Origin: Phytoseiulus persimilis
Lineage: Eukaryota; Arthropoda; Arachnida; Mesostigmata; Phytoseiidae
Reading direction: 5' to 3'
Length of the DNA: 64,000 nucleotides
Assembly (NCBI GenBank): GCA_037576195.1
Contig: CM075102.1
Span: 34,840,745 to 34,904,744 of the forward strand
Shown here: positions 12,401 to 62,800 of the stretch, one piece after another
Numbering within the stretch: position 1 is the first letter of the stretch
Layout of the letters: each line of letters starts with the position of its first letter
Notes under the pieces: generated by a model
What the model was told of the DNA's origin: nothing
Seen by the model: only the letters and a program-made list of their open reading frames with translations
The model's database searches: none
Made by a program: the position numbers and the translations under genes

Positions 12401-14591
12401 TCCAACAAGCTAATTATGATGATTCGGTGCACCTCTTCCCAACGTTAATTGCCTTTTTTTACCGCGATTTCCTAGGCCATGGTACCCACTCCGTGAATGG
12501 TGTCTTGCACGTTTCCTTCATTCCCTGCTGCCCAAGGAAACCCTGAGCTCCGTTTTCGTCGATGAGGAAAGTGTGAATTATTCTGCGAGACGAATGGAGC
12601 GCGTCATTTCATAGCACCTTCCGATCTGTGATTGCTCGATACATCTATCGTCTCATGCTTGTCGTAGGGACGCTTGTGTAACGATCACAGGGAGGAAAGT
12701 CAAGAACTCAAACAACTGCGGTTAACTGGCCTATTCGAAAGCATTTCAAATCGAAAATTGCTCCTGCAGAGGTCAGAGGTGAGCTCTCTGCTGCGACTCT
12801 ATGTGCCGGGGTTGACACTCCAAGATCGTTCGAGCCGGAAACAGTCTCATTGATTCCCAATGAGCGAATTCGACGGATGGATCATTATGTTCCCGGGTTG
12901 GTGATCTAGAAGGTATTAGACGTGCTGCATGACGCTAACGGACCTTCCCTAATTTGGTTGGAGTGGGGTCTTCGACGAGGCGATTCGCTGAGCGAGTCCG
13001 TCATGGAAAATGACACACTCGAGTCGAACATTCCGATGGCTGTTGATCTCTCATCGAGCTCTGATTCAACAGCAATGGTTCAAGATGGCCCCCTTCAGTC
13101 TGGATTCGACTTCAGGCAAGCTGTCGAAAAATTCACTCGCCCTCCGGCTATTTGATCTGCCGCAGAACATAGAGGGCCGGTGAAAAATTCTCTTGTTTTA
13201 GTTCGAGTGAGTGGACACAGCGTTTGTGGACGTTCCCATCGGAGGATTGAGGACGCGAGGATAATTGGGTCGCCTGATACGGAGATGACTGCCAAGTGTA
13301 CATTTCGTGGATCAGAAACTTCGGCAGGGGAGAGCGAAGACACGGCCGGGAGACTGCCACGCGAGAGGAATATTCTTTGGAATGATAAATGACGTCTTGG
13401 GACTGATTGCGATGCTGGCCTTGGGGCTCCGGAGACGAATGAGAGCGAACAGGGTCCAATCGAACTCCATGCGGGACATGACATTCAGGCCCCAGACGTT
13501 ACGGCCCGGATATTTCGTCCCCGAGAGCATGATACTGAGCATTGGACCCATCTAGATGTGAGCATGGATGCTTTTCATGGCTTTAACACGTCATGGTAAA
13601 ATCTCGTATTTCGTTGAGAGTTATTCTCATATGTTAATTACGTGCATCATCGAGCTTCGGATCCATCCGAGACCCCCGATAAACTGACGCCTCTTCCTAT
13701 AGGGGCTGACCAGTGGAAGAGTCGAGACCTCAACGAATCCAAGCGGTTCGCGGTTCTTGAAATTTTGCACCCGCATCGACCATAAGGTCTTCATACGCGG
13801 CATTTTGGATCTGGATGCGAGGCGAGAGAACGCATCTTGTATTTTTTAGTCGAGGGCAAGCCCGAGGTGAACGTATGATGACCGTACAACGAAGACATAT
13901 TTGTGATACCCCGCAAGAATGGCGTCCGAGATTCCATCGCTTAGCATTGCAACTCGGCGTTCAGTGTGGTCCATGAGCGGGAACCGAGAATACATAATTT
14001 GGGGGACAGAGAGATCTGACGGCCGTTGGAAAGTCGAGCAGCCCGAGCTTAGCTCAGAAGTCCCCGAGTGGGCGCCTCCAGGCTTCCAGGATCTTAAGGT
14101 GGCTCGTCAATGAGACTACAGTAGAAGCCGCTTATGGTATAGGATGCCTCTCGGGGAAGACGGCTAACTTGATTCCAAGGGGGGGGGGATCTCGGGATCC
14201 GTGATTTTTTTCGCGGTTCTGTCTGTTGAGGCTTCCTTTGATAGACCGACCAGTTCGATCCTCTCAGTCGCGAAAAATATCTCGAGCGACATTTTAACCA
14301 CTCGGTCGGACGCGAAATTGACGTGTTAAGAGCTCGCTAGCAAGGAGGGAGAGAGCCGATCCCTGGGGTCCTGCCAGGAGTACTTTGATCTGGTAAAGAT
14401 CGAGGACACCTCAGTTATTCACCGTTTGGGTGGTTCTCGCATGTCCGGTTAACTGTCCGATTTCGAGGGTGATTTGCGCCCAACGAGAGTCCGCTCGTGT
14501 GGGACTTCGAGCCATCCTCCATGCTAGTCCAACTGATTGACTTCTCTCATTAAGGGGCTTGGATTTCGATGAACTGAACATTCTCGGACAG

Positions 14592-16194: not shown

Positions 16195-16570
16195 GACGTT
16201 TCAGCTCCTGAACTCTCCGACCCCGAGGTATTTCAGTGTTTGAGCTCTTCGGTCCCAAATATTCCGGCCTTATGACCGTTCGGTCTCGATCGGTGGCGAT
16301 CGTCTGTGCAACAAACCTCGAATAGTCCCTATGTGCGTAGTCATCCTGCATTGTTTTCTGGATTTCATGTACTCATTTCAATATAAGGAGAATTCGTCAC
16401 TGATTCCCCACCGTTTTGAGTTCCTCTAGCATACTGGTTTCGTTCGCAAGCCCATGAGAGAGCGTAGATGTCTCGGGGCTGGGATGTCTAGGAGCCGAGA
16501 AGTTCGGACCGAGATGTCTGGGGCCGAGAAAAACGGATCGAGACGTTTGGGGCTGAAATGTCAAGTACGG
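16195..16570. repeat. Decayed ~29-bp minisatellite in two inverted blocks
   Basis: At 16,450-16,570 three or more diverged units of about 28-30 bp follow one another, each with a core like GATGTCTGGGGCCGAGA followed by a purine-rich spacer. At 16,195-16,265 the same core appears on the opposite strand. The units are too diverged for exact borders. The block explains the apparent open frames that cross it. Confidence 0.5.
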
Positions 16571-48141: not shown

Positions 48142-49557
48142 GATTATTGCACATAGAGCGAAACCGGCTTGAGCAATGCAGTAAATCGTTCAATATAGCT
48201 GTGATTCTATCTTCGAGTTTTGAATCTTCTACCGACATTCGCCTGTACTTTGGATTTCCCCGAATTCCCGAGTGACGGGGAATGATGTGAATGCATTCAG
48301 CTCAGAGAAAGTTGTTATTGGGTTGCGCCGCTGTTGACCTGAGCTTCCTCTCGTTCCAAAAAGAGCACCGGTTATCTGGTGATTGAGAGAAGTCTCTGCG
48401 GTCCAAATGATTCGGTTCGGAAACTTCAGCCGCTTCATCTGATCCTCGATGCATTATCGAATTCGATGGTATGCCGATCTGTTGCGAATCGATGCCACGA
48501 AATGCGTACGATGCAGAATAATCTTGAGCAAATCCGGCTCGGTGAGCCTCATGACCGGTGAACCTTATGCAGTTCACAAACTAGCTCCCCAACCCTTCGT
48601 GAACTAGTGACTTTCCAACCCCAATGTCTTGGACGTACCATTTCCAGTTAGGATAATATCAATCAGCTGCATTTTCTCGCGCTGCCATCGAGGGCGAACA
48701 TCGGCGCAGACCGGGGAGATCAAACAACTCGACGATTGCTCCACAGATTTCTCCAGTCAAGAGCTCTGGAAGTTTCAGAGCTCGCTCTCTACAGTCGCAG
48801 CGCACAGATGCCAACCGTGAATTATGAAAGCGATCTTCGAGCGATGGACCAACGGATCGAACCCTCCTGGTCGAGACGCCTTCTCAGGACAAAACATACG
48901 GCGGGTCGTTTCTGGATAGAGAGAACCTCGGGAAAAATGAGAGTTGTCTACAGACGGTAAAGTGCCACGTTCGTCCGACGAATCCGTTCGAGGTCGAGTC
49001 ACGCGCGGCTCTGGAGAGCTATATTTTTGTGCCAGAACGGGTTCCGGCCCTTAACTGGTTCAGCTTCCTATTGCTCCGTTGATTCCTCTTGTTGAAGCAG
49101 CTGCAGGAAATTGTCGTTATCCTCCCGAAAGACAATCAGAAACTCCATATGGGCCAGAATACGGTCACGCGATTCTTCATCCCGCTGTGTATCGAGATAT
49201 TGGCGCAAAAAATGCTCTTGCACCAAGGAACTCGCATAGATGGGGTACATCTTAACACTCACGACATACTAACCGAAAGCAGAGATCGCTCATCTCACCG
49301 CGATCCGCCTTGGACATTTTTAGAGATTGATAATTCCTGACTGTAAAGCTCCGGATCTGTCTGGAGTGCCGTCATCAAAGACGCTTCCCTCACTGTTGTC
49401 CACCGAATTCTTGTGGAAGCAGCAGACGAACGAACTTCAGCTCGCTTGTAATATCCATGTTCGCGACTAATTCAGTCAGAAGTGATTCCCGCTTGTTTTC
49501 TGCGTAGAGATCAGTGGAGTGTGATGATGCGAACCAAGCACCTCCCTGAGAGGTTAT
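48142..49557. other. Intergenic stretch between YJU2B and the fold-back element
   Basis: This holds the YJU2B 3' UTR and intergenic DNA. I see no reading frame with protein-like character or splice signals, no RNA gene and no repeat with clear ends. Confidence 0.5.
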
Positions 49558-49559
49558 GC

Positions 49560-49634
49560 CTCAGATGCCAGAAACTCAGATGCCAGAATCTCAGATGCCA
49601 GAAACTCAGATGCCAGAAACTCAGATGCCAGAAT
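49560..49634 (+). repeat. Left arm: five 15-bp tandem units
   Basis: Five head-to-tail copies of CTCAGATGCCAGAAA. Units 2 and 5 end in AAT, the others in AAA. They match the right arm in order and orientation when that arm is reverse-complemented. Confidence 0.95.
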
Positions 49635-50335
49635 GAAACCCTCTCCCGATCCCGGATAGATCCCCGCTAATTAAGCGGATTTGGGAGCAAAGCGTCTCCG
49701 ACGTCTGCAACGAGCGCGAGTCATGCGGCAGACCCTTTGTACATATGGTACACGCTGCACCGCACCCCCTGTGATTCATTGATGGTTTGCTGATGATGGC
49801 AACGAATGAATCATGATGAATGGATGGGACATTCGATGCATGTCTTCAATCTCGATCAGCGTGGACGTTCGGGGACTCGAGCTCCGGGGAAATAGAAAAG
49901 CGATCCTTCGCGCATTCCGAGCGGTCGCAGCCCCCTTCGCCGAAAGCTCGCTCGGCCTCAACTTGGATTTTGGGCCGCTAGCTCGGCGATTCCTCACTCA
50001 ATGCACGGAGTTATGGGAGGAACTACCTTCCTTTCTACTCGTCGCTAGCGAATCATCACTGCCAGTGACGGAGAGAGTGTAGGATTGAGGCGGGTCCGGA
50101 CACCCGCAATGAGGACGTCGTTGAGTTTTCCACGTCGATCGACAATAATCACATGTCCGGGGTGGTTCTCAAGCTGATCCTGTTGGCCCAAGGAGGGTAA
50201 CAGAGGTAGCCTGTGCTAGAACCTTTGGAGCTGTAGCTTTCCCCATCGAGCTCCCCGGTTCTGCCTAACTTCATTCGCGGCCTCCAATAACCCGCTGAAT
50301 CAGCGGGGACCCATCCGCAGTCGGGGGAGTGTTTT

Positions 50336-50410
50336 ATTCTGGCATCTGAGTTTCTGGCATCTGAGTTTCTGGCATCTGAGAGTCTGGCATCTGAGTTTCT
50401 GGCATCTGAG
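50336..50410 (-). repeat. Right arm: five 15-bp tandem units, inverted
   Basis: Five copies of TTCTGGCATCTGAG-type units, the reverse complement of the left arm. Counting from the outer end, unit 2 is again the variant one (ending ACT here, AAT on the left) and unit 5 again ends AAT, so the arms descend from one another as whole blocks. Confidence 0.95.
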
Positions 50411-50762
50411 GCTACGCCCCCTGAGAAGTCCGATGAAGCCTGGTCGTTTCCCGCAGCCCACGATCACGCTTCCGAGAATCTGACGATTTTCTCAGGACAT
50501 AACAACAACTCCCATTTATTTCGTTTTGCAATCGATGTGTAGGATGAATGCTCTTATGTATCTTGTGAAGTGCAAGGTTGTGTGAGTTGCAGCACCTAGT
50601 GCAAATGCAGAACCGGATGCTCACGCAGGGACTACGAAAAACTATCATGCTTCCTCCTTCGAAACTCTAGAAAAGTTTGGATGAGCGGCCCAGTCGGCGA
50701 AACATGATGGGAGATTTCTCAGCAGACACGAAGAAGAAAAACTCCATGAACAACTCATATAT

Positions 50763-59800: not shown

Positions 59801-62800
59801 ACCATCGACAGACGGCGATTGTGAGGATACAGTGCGTTCCGAATGACTAACGCCCCCGAATTTCCATCGGTTTCAATCGGTCTCAACGGAGGAGTTCGGG
59901 AAAACTGGAGCGATTCCTCCGGTAATCGGCGCCTCCTAGGCTTCCACAGAGTGCAGCAACTCGATGAGTCCCAGTGTGAGCGATTCACCTTCTTCTCCAC
60001 AAATCGCTTTTTATTGGGATCGGCCAAAGAGACTTGACTCGAGAAAATTGCCCAATGAGAAGCTAAGACGCATCTGAACCTGTGATTCGATGATCATGGC
60101 ACTTTAGTGAACGAATTATCAACTCAGCATGCAGTACTAAGAACCGAGTAGCCGCATATCGACCCAGCATGATGAGTCCCTCCGACTAGTCAACTGGGAG
60201 ATCGTCAACGTCCGAGGCTCCGCGAGACTGGGAGTTCTCTATTACGGGATCACGCGGGACGTCCTGATGTCTCATGTTTGTTACACACCAAAGTCGCGGT
60301 AAATCGGAATGCCCTCGCACACGACGGAAATCCTGCCGCGAACCGTTTGCGGAACCAGCTGACCGCGTTGGAGCGTCATGGAATGGTCTCTGCTCGGCGT
60401 CAGTTTGTCTAGTCATTACGGCCCTCAAGGTTTCGCCGATATCAAGTTCCGAATCGCTGACGGTCAGTCAAGCACGCCGATTTTTCTACGTACATCCGAG
60501 CTGTGTCGTGCTGGCAGACAGAACTTTGGTTATCGAGCTGCTCCATGTACAGAGCCAAACTTCTTCCCAGAACCTCAACCAGGAGTTTAAGGAATGTCAC
60601 TGTGATCCGAGTCAACCTCATCGAATGCTAGTTCCTGACTTTCCCAGTTTCGTTGGAACTTTGCCACGACCCATCGTTGGCTTCGATCAGCTGGGAATCG
60701 AACACCGCACTTCTTTAACACCTTTTCCGAGGCTGTTTCATCTATATGTAGTGGTCGGCTTCCATGTGAGCGCACCGGAAGCACCTGGAATCGACGGAAG
60801 CGAAGGGTCCCGCGATCTAATCTACACCTCCATGTCAGATCTCTAACATTCCATTCTTGCTCGAAACGCAGCAGATTTCAGGAGCTTCGAGTGCGTCTCG
60901 ATGGAAGACTGCGAAGGTTGAAGCGGCTCACGGAGATGATGAAGCCACGTTTGTAAATTCTGTGAACTTGTACAAAATGAAGCAAAAGCCTCCACTGTAC
61001 TCCTACTCTGGTGTGATTCTTAGTTGTTCTTTTGGAAGTCACTCCGAAATATCCGACGCAGGTCGCGAGCAGCAGGAGGACATAAAATATGAAACCATCT
61101 CCAAGTGGCAGGCGGAACGGGACACATCAACGAAAGGACAACGGATGCACCTCTGCATACCGCACATCAAGAAATGGATGGACAGGAAACATGGAGAGCT
61201 ATCGTACCATACAAATCAAGTTCTTACGGCTCACGGCTGTTTTCAGTCGTACCTACACCGCATTAGGAAGGCCCCAACGAAGCAGTGTACACTATGTACA
61301 ACGGGAGAGGCGGATTACCCCCATCATACGGTTCTGAAGTGCCCCGCGCTCAGCTCCGCCAGAGGTAACCTGGCAGAGACCGACAGCATCCCGCGGCTTC
61401 TCGAGAACATGATTCAAGCAAAGAAGCCTGGGAGAAGACAAGTAGACTCTTTGCCTGCATCCTCAAAAGAAGGAAGCACTGCTCAAAGAAAAATAGGTGT
61501 CCCGGCGAACAATGGAAGACATCCTTGCTTCCGTGACGGACATCTGACACTCAATGGAAAGTGACCAACGAAGACTGACCGAAGATAGAAGGTATGAGAA
61601 AGGCGCGCCGCTAGGAACAACTTGGAAGCAATAACAATGCAAGGAACAACTAGGAAGCAATAACAATGCAAGGAACAACTTGGAAGCAATAACAATGCAG
61701 GGATTATGCCCTGAGTCCCCGAGCCTAGCAGCCGGAGAAGGGTGTTTTAGAGGCAACACCTCATAATGTGAGCAACGGACCACGGTCCTATCTTTGATAT
61801 CCGAAGGGATTCCACGTATTACCACAGAAATGAAAAAAAAAAATAAAAAAAAGGTCGCGAGCAGCCAGGCTCCGAGTTCTACGATGGACAGGAATAACTA
61901 CATCGAATCAGGAAAAACGGGGTATCGCATTATTGCCTTGCGACTCGCGAACGCCTGAATCAGACACTCCACTGATCACTAGAGCCTAGAAGTTCAGGTA
62001 CAATTCATCCCCTGCCCCCGATTTTGAGAACTGAGAAATTCATGCATCGAAGACTTATTTATCTATCGACCTTCATTGGTGGATGGATGATGTGAAACGA
62101 ATTATGCCTGAACTTCCAGACTGAAGTGACGATATCAACATGAGTGGCCGAAGCGTCGAGATCGAACAGCTCGGATTGCGATCTGGCTGAATCTTGTTCA
62201 CGGTGTCTGGCGAGCGATTCGCCGCGTACAGTATCTTGCCAATTCACACCCTGTCTCACTCGTTCGCGCGAGAAGAGCCGCAGGAGCTGGACCCAAATAT
62301 GAGATGTTGCCCGCACGTTTCGGTATCCTTGAAGGCATGCTCAGATATCGACATCTACATCGCGGCCGACAGGAAAATCAGTGAGATGTTCCGGAGTTCC
62401 CTGAGAATGGAGCTTACACTTCCCGCGATCATCAAGATCAATTGCTTCGTGACCTCCCTCCCTGTTCCAACGTGAGCTCCGCGAGGCCGTCGGAAGCTAT
62501 GTAGCGGGAGAATCATGACCCCCAGCAATCCCTGAAGCAGTGATGGCAACTCACCTTTGCTCTCAAGCTTATCGATACTGTGCTGCATCTGAGCTATTCT
62601 GGACTCAGCGTCGGTTGATACTTTCGGGGGAGCATTTGAAGCAATTTCCAGTTGGACGCGGTATGACTCAATTTCGATCTTCTTGGCGTTCAACTCGGAT
62701 TCGATCTCTGACGTTCGCTGTAAAAAAATATGATCGCGATTGGATTGCGGAGTTCGTCTGCGCTGGATGCTCTCTTGCTACAAGGAAGCTTGTCGGAGGA

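Follow-up and report, generated by a model that had tools for sequence, protein, structure and literature searches.

Identity of the Element

The 64,000-nucleotide stretch of Phytoseiulus persimilis DNA analysed here and called the window (assembly GCA_037576195.1, contig CM075102.1, positions 34,840,745 to 34,904,744) carries an 867-bp element at 49552-50418, bounded by 8-bp target-site duplications CCCTGAGA, which is very probably (about 0.92) a non-autonomous fold-back transposon of the Mutator-like element (MULE) superfamily, of Phantom/Muta-like type, for whose movement a 4.3-kb relative in this genome would supply the transposase in trans. This identity is proposed because autonomous-type copies have the same tips, the same tandem units, and the same length of target-site duplication. 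Long copies encode a transposase with a MULE DDE domain between such ends, and the 8-bp duplication, exact in 58 of 75 copies, lies within the 8-11 bp given for MULEs in the part of PMC6446971 used here. Moreover, an N-terminal FLYWCH finger is combined with the MULE domain, which by its domain content would place the transposase in the Phantom group; the Phantom finger is reported there as FLYWCH, SWIM, or none (PMC6446971). The ends are long inverted repeats of tandem units, and the window element itself, which has the tips, units, and duplication length of the coding copies, contains no open reading frame (ORF) of at least 120 aa within 49552-50418.

An earlier note on this DNA had proposed a fold-back transposon with five 15-bp units in each inverted arm and had suggested searching for further copies, the target-site duplication, and a transposase gene bounded by the same arm. 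The proposal is borne out by the many copies scattered through the genome, by their exact 8-bp duplications and the empty sites, and by copies of 4.3-4.8 kb that have the same ends and code for a transposase. Elements of this kind are already known, and the family is useful as a test case: its numerous recent copies, its arm-specific markers, and three transposase frames free of interruptions allow questions on the building and upkeep of fold-back ends to be decided by counting.

Copies in the Genome and Their Target Sites

A DNA search gave at least 133 matching pieces, including at least 41 near-full copies at 91-100% (40 of 170 candidates scored). The exact tip-plus-unit pattern occurs at 81 places for the left tip GGTTATGC and at 79 for the right tip GGCGTAGC, and at none for the reversed control, while a fuzzy search returned 343 places, with about 130 expected from its control. 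From the loci fetched, 75 two-tip elements were assembled, each pairing one left-type with one right-type tip; 26 single-tip places were excluded, and copies with decayed tips, such as a pair of two-unit matches at C1:39562751-39563530, also lie outside the set. Since the copies counted were found through the element or through a tip plus its first unit, conserved ends are favoured, a bias from which only the protein-found relatives L107 and L108 are free. The number of units per arm ranges from 1 to 10, units being parsed as far as the first strongly mutated one.

The earlier note had held that an absence of other copies, or copies sharing the unit as a plain satellite, would speak against a transposon. 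The unit is indeed tandem, and a 15-bp satellite inverted by chance could present such arrays, but 352 of the 391 exact two-unit matches fall inside the 75 elements, each arm holds only 1 to 10 units, and the copies have an interior and 8-bp duplications in common, so this explanation is refuted and its probability is negligible.

The duplications are exact over 8 bp in 58 of the 75 copies, carry one mismatch in 10, and more in 7; exact duplications of any other length, 9 bp included, were found in none of the 75. Four groups of copies represent duplicated stretches of chromosome, leaving 70 independent insertions, of which 55 have an exact duplication. The window copy does not differ from L001 at any of its 867 bp, and the two have different duplications. 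The same holds for L075 and L076, which lie on two large contigs and agree throughout their 4315 bp. Judged by such identical copies, the family is recently active.

Empty sites were sought by comparing the 75 joined flanks with the fetched loci and the window. Eight joined flanks align across the junction, six of them (L010, L028, L029, L030, L039, and L064) with the exact duplication removed. The best cases are L010, L029, and L039. L010 is nested in an older copy of its own family, and once it and one duplication are taken out of the sequence, the older copy aligns to the element without a break over 459 columns, while at the empty sites of L029 and L039 a 45-bp minisatellite continues in phase. 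The joined flank of L064 matches window positions 14347-14566 at 72%, and that of L028 overlaps the junction by only about 30 bp.

Five copies, namely L005, L014, L029, L039, and, by similarity, L008, have the 45-bp minisatellite (with the consensus GTGATTCCGGGACCAATCTGAGCATTACTTCCCAACTCTGGAGGG in L029) next to them or on both sides. A derivation of the 15-bp unit from it was considered and rejected, the two consensus sequences being unlike by eye. Family members also occur in pairs, at L049 (C2:16355955-16357677) and L048 (C1:855302-856659), spaced 20 bp and 86 bp, and a cluster of several long elements together with the 1808-bp L079 and L080, some of them in duplicated stretches, lies at about 23.1-25.1 Mb of G000:C3.

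Autonomous-Type Copies and Their Transposase

Ten copies measure 4.3-4.8 kb, among which L072, L073, and L078 represent a single insertion in duplicated stretches. An unbroken MULE frame of 464 codons is present in L075, L076, and L077 and in none of the other seven; counted from the first Met of the open frame, it has 426 codons. The MULE domain PF10551 matches the L075 frame at 3.3e-11, and candidate catalytic D, D, and E lie at residues 184, 250, and 375. Their spacing of 65 and 124 is inside both ranges given in section 3.2 of an arthropod MULE survey (60-76 in general, and 120-135 in eight of twelve arthropod families; PMC13359780).

A FLYWCH exon lies upstream of the MULE frame, unspliced pieces from two copies giving PF04500 scores of 34.2 and 31.4 bits. 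Sixteen GT..AG pairs would join FLYWCH and MULE in frame; the preferred model (GTAAAG..TGCAG) predicts a 624-bp intron and a product of 478 residues. On this splice PF04500 matches 62 of 62 profile positions, a match that is less than independent, given that the splice was picked for keeping the zinc finger whole.

The matching arms of L075 and L076 stop at position 158. In a comparison with the autonomous-type L031, positions 9-445 of the window element (to about 49996) match the 5' end with an identity of about 80%, and the last 157 bp reach about 88.5%, while the part between about 49997 and 50262 has no BLAST match to L031 or L032. Among relatives found by protein alone, without recourse to their ends, the unit recurs at two ends, and the tips there, GGCGAAGC in L107 and GGTCATGC in L108, are near-identical to those of the family; the transposase pieces of L108 match at 75 and 82%.

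Some observations weigh against the proposed identity. Seven of the 75 copies have no recognisable duplication. Over the first 445 bp, identity between the 867-bp copies and those of autonomous type reaches only about 80%, so the short copies may descend directly from a different lineage that has decayed or was not seen. Furthermore, of the six end stretches fetched for three protein-found relatives, four (L104, L105, L106, and L109) had no array of units; in all likelihood, the true ends are located elsewhere or have been lost.

Transposition of the family might proceed in several steps. In each arm, the FLYWCH finger and neighbouring parts of the transposase would attach to the repeated 12-nt core CTCAGATGCCAG, the two ends would be drawn together by several transposase molecules, and the DDE domain would cut at the GG..CC tips and insert the element with an 8-bp stagger. 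At transposition the whole element is passed on as a block. Whole units are gained or lost in place within one arm, as in the two cases described below, presumably through slippage or unequal exchange.

Other MULE lineages are present on many G000 contigs at about 45-55% protein identity, with several matches free of internal stops. A relative of the transposase, matching in two pieces at 89 and 80%, is present three times at G000:C2:5753396-5778318; the copies follow each other at a spacing of about 11.8 kb and are probably a tandem duplication.

Structure of the Window Element

The true ends of the element (Table 1) were fixed from the flanks of 30 copies. They lie 6 nt farther out on each side than the limits of 49558 and 50412 first assigned, which fell short because the tips are asymmetric, differing at four of the outer 8 nt. 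Tandem Repeats Finder (TRF) places the arrays at 49560-49633 and 50337-50410, and both are contained in an inverted pair of 124 nt with 90% identity, in agreement with the five inverted 15-bp units described before.

Table 1. Parts of the fold-back element in the window and their coordinates.
Feature	Position	Strand	Remarks
Target-site duplication, left copy CCCTGAGA	49544..49551	.	Exact 8-bp duplication in 58/75 copies
Left tip GGTTATGC	49552..49559	+	74/75 copies; GGTTTTGC in the remaining one
Left array, five 15-bp units	49560..49634	+	CTCAGATGCCAG plus tails AAA AAT AAA AAA AAT (outer to inner)
Left inner inverted block	49635..49681	+	
Middle	49682..50288	.	No ORF of at least 120 aa
Right inner inverted block	50289..50335	-	
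Right array, five 15-bp units	50336..50410	-	Tails AAA ACT AAA AAA AAT (outer to inner)
Right tip GGCGTAGC (read inwards)	50411..50418	-	75/75 copies
Target-site duplication, right copy CCCTGAGA	50419..50426	.	

As the earlier note had observed, the inner block is more diverged than the array: between the arms of the window element, 1 of 75 array positions mismatches against 11 of 47 in the inner blocks (Fisher p = 0.0004), and in the twenty elements whose two arms each have five 15-bp units the mismatches are 43/1500 and 229/900. The tail AAT of the innermost unit, likewise seen correctly in both arms, is a family-wide boundary feature, present in 70 of 75 left arms and 68 of 75 right arms.

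How the Arms Change

The variant second unit had been taken as a sign that the arms were copied as blocks rather than expanded separately. Its position is the same in both arms, but its letters differ, the tail being AAT on the left and ACT on the right. Moreover, with one variant among the four non-innermost units of each arm, a shared position has a chance of 1/4 and is therefore weak evidence. Across the 75 parsed copies the variants are private to one arm, and the equal position was rejected as a sign of block copying. The tail ACT occurs in 54 right-arm units and in no left-arm unit, always in short elements (45 of 63), whereas a non-innermost AAT occurs in 42 left-arm units (38 in short and 4 in autonomous-type elements) and is absent from all right-arm units. 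Since copies share descent, the units counted are not independent events; no such variant has crossed between arms.

The groups of duplicated insertions record more recent changes. The right arm of L068 is 30 bp (two units) shorter than that of L067, with no unit change in the left arm, and the left arm of L073 is one 16-bp unit longer than in L072 and L078, with no unit change in the right arm. In the L053/L054 and L079/L080 groups, unit changes are found in neither arm. With one-arm unit changes in two of the four groups, the arms expand and contract separately on a recent time scale. Hence, the claim of block copying is not supported; the two ends have recently changed independently and have not been copied from each other.

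Possible Older Exchange between the Arms and Conservation of the Unit

On a longer time scale, the likeness of the arms could be explained in more than one way. The earlier note proposes that arms are kept alike by copying from one to the other, which would occur by gene conversion, either within a folded strand or from one sister copy to another, and which we consider rather unlikely. It draws on the autonomous-type lineage. In the consensus of its 12 copies, inner positions 19, 21, and 23 are changed in both arms, and these changes are absent from both arms of the short elements, while the left arm, the only one found of the outgroup L108, carries the short-element state at all of them. In addition, a 16-bp unit with the tail AAAA occurs 13 times in left and 11 times in right autonomous-type arms and 0 times among the parsed units of the 63 short elements, and the two arms of L075 are identical at every position from 7 to 115. 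Nevertheless, no second-unit variant has crossed, the tips are arm-specific at four of eight positions in 74 of the 75 copies and at three in the remaining one, and each lineage keeps an arm-specific state at inner position 35. When the consensus sequences of the autonomous-type and short lineages are compared, sites 19, 21, and 23 are shared between arms within a lineage and site 35 by the same arm across lineages, and no site is shared crosswise. The support for copying comes down to three inner sites and one length change, and parallel selection together with the transposase would look alike. An old transfer between autonomous arms may have taken place, a single event fitting the pattern as well as parallel selection does, and is a lead and not a result. 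That the inner half of the arm is occasionally rewritten from the other arm, with the asymmetric tips and the innermost part staying arm-specific and bounding the homogenised tract in each element, seems unlikely.

The alternative that selection for transposase binding alone conserves the array, the arms never having exchanged sequence, has in our view slightly better than an even chance. Left and right arms of the two lineages all have one and the same 15-nt consensus unit (0/30 differences, against 18/90 in the inner blocks; p = 0.006 between the consensus of the 12 autonomous-type copies and that of a group of 33 short elements, or p = 0.07 if the unit is counted once), and its 12-nt core plus 3-4-nt tail has the layout of Muta1, as described in the available text of PMC5225508. 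On the other hand, the tract shared by the autonomous arms would then require parallel change, and the bias towards conserved ends in the counted copies, which only L107 and L108 escape, detracts from the apparent conservation. Transposase binding is the likeliest role of the unit, as suggested by its retention in L107 and L108, by the Muta1 layout, and by analogy with the binding sites of Galileo.

Relation to Known Systems

Fold-back elements with tandem units in their arms include the TU elements of sea urchins and FB/NOF of Drosophila. In the literature searched on predatory mites, and on mites together with foldback or MULE, nothing was found on this element. Table 1 of a 2026 survey of arthropod MULEs (PMC13359780) has an entry for a mesostigmatan element whose total length is 4315 bp, whose inverted repeats measure 158 bp, and whose transposase has 427 aa. 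L075 and L076 equal it in total length and in their 158-bp ends, their transposase having 426 codons against 427 aa, and by these lengths the survey element would be the autonomous copy L075/L076. The main text of that survey yielded no occurrence of tandem, nonautonomous, non-autonomous, subterminal, or miniature.

The MULEs of Aedes aegypti, as far as the part of PMC5225508 used here describes them, encode FLYWCH transposases in 13 of 14 families and have duplications of 8 or 9 bp, whereas no 9-bp duplication was found in the mite family. Muta1 (3198 bp) has 12-bp units with 3-4-bp spacers in varying number and more than 300 derivatives, and Muta5 (3496 bp) has nine 15-bp units, an 8-bp terminal motif, and more than 200 derivatives (PMC5225508). 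By description, the mite family resembles both in being a FLYWCH-MULE with tandem-unit ends and short derivatives.

Tm1 of root-knot nematodes is, in the sections of PMC3169594 consulted, a Phantom-type FLYWCH-MULE with asymmetric 7-bp end motifs, variable numbers of 13-15-bp units, short derivatives, and duplications of 8-10 bp, most commonly 9, and is considered inactive by its authors. It shares with the mite family the FLYWCH-MULE transposase, the asymmetric tips, and the variable unit number, but the unit consensus differs. Membership in Tm1 was rejected, since its end motifs CGGTTAA and CCTACCC and its unit CGATTCAGTATCCGC, compared by eye with GGTTATGC, GGCGTAGC, and CTCAGATGCCAGAAA, have only GGTTA in common with them (PMC3169594). 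Fold-back ends built of tandem repeats are also shared with Galileo and Tetris of Drosophila; in the portions of the reports used here, transposase binding sites are demonstrated in the repeats of Galileo (PMC3688188) and no transposase was found for Tetris (PMC4079207).

Other Observations in the Window

Scans of the window with Rfam and ARAGORN gave no match, and Pfam, applied to eight window ORFs, returned only Ig_3 and MFS_1, both under the curated cut-off. Two more tandem arrays, each with a 29-bp period and with different units, lie at 16483-16553 and 61613-61703.
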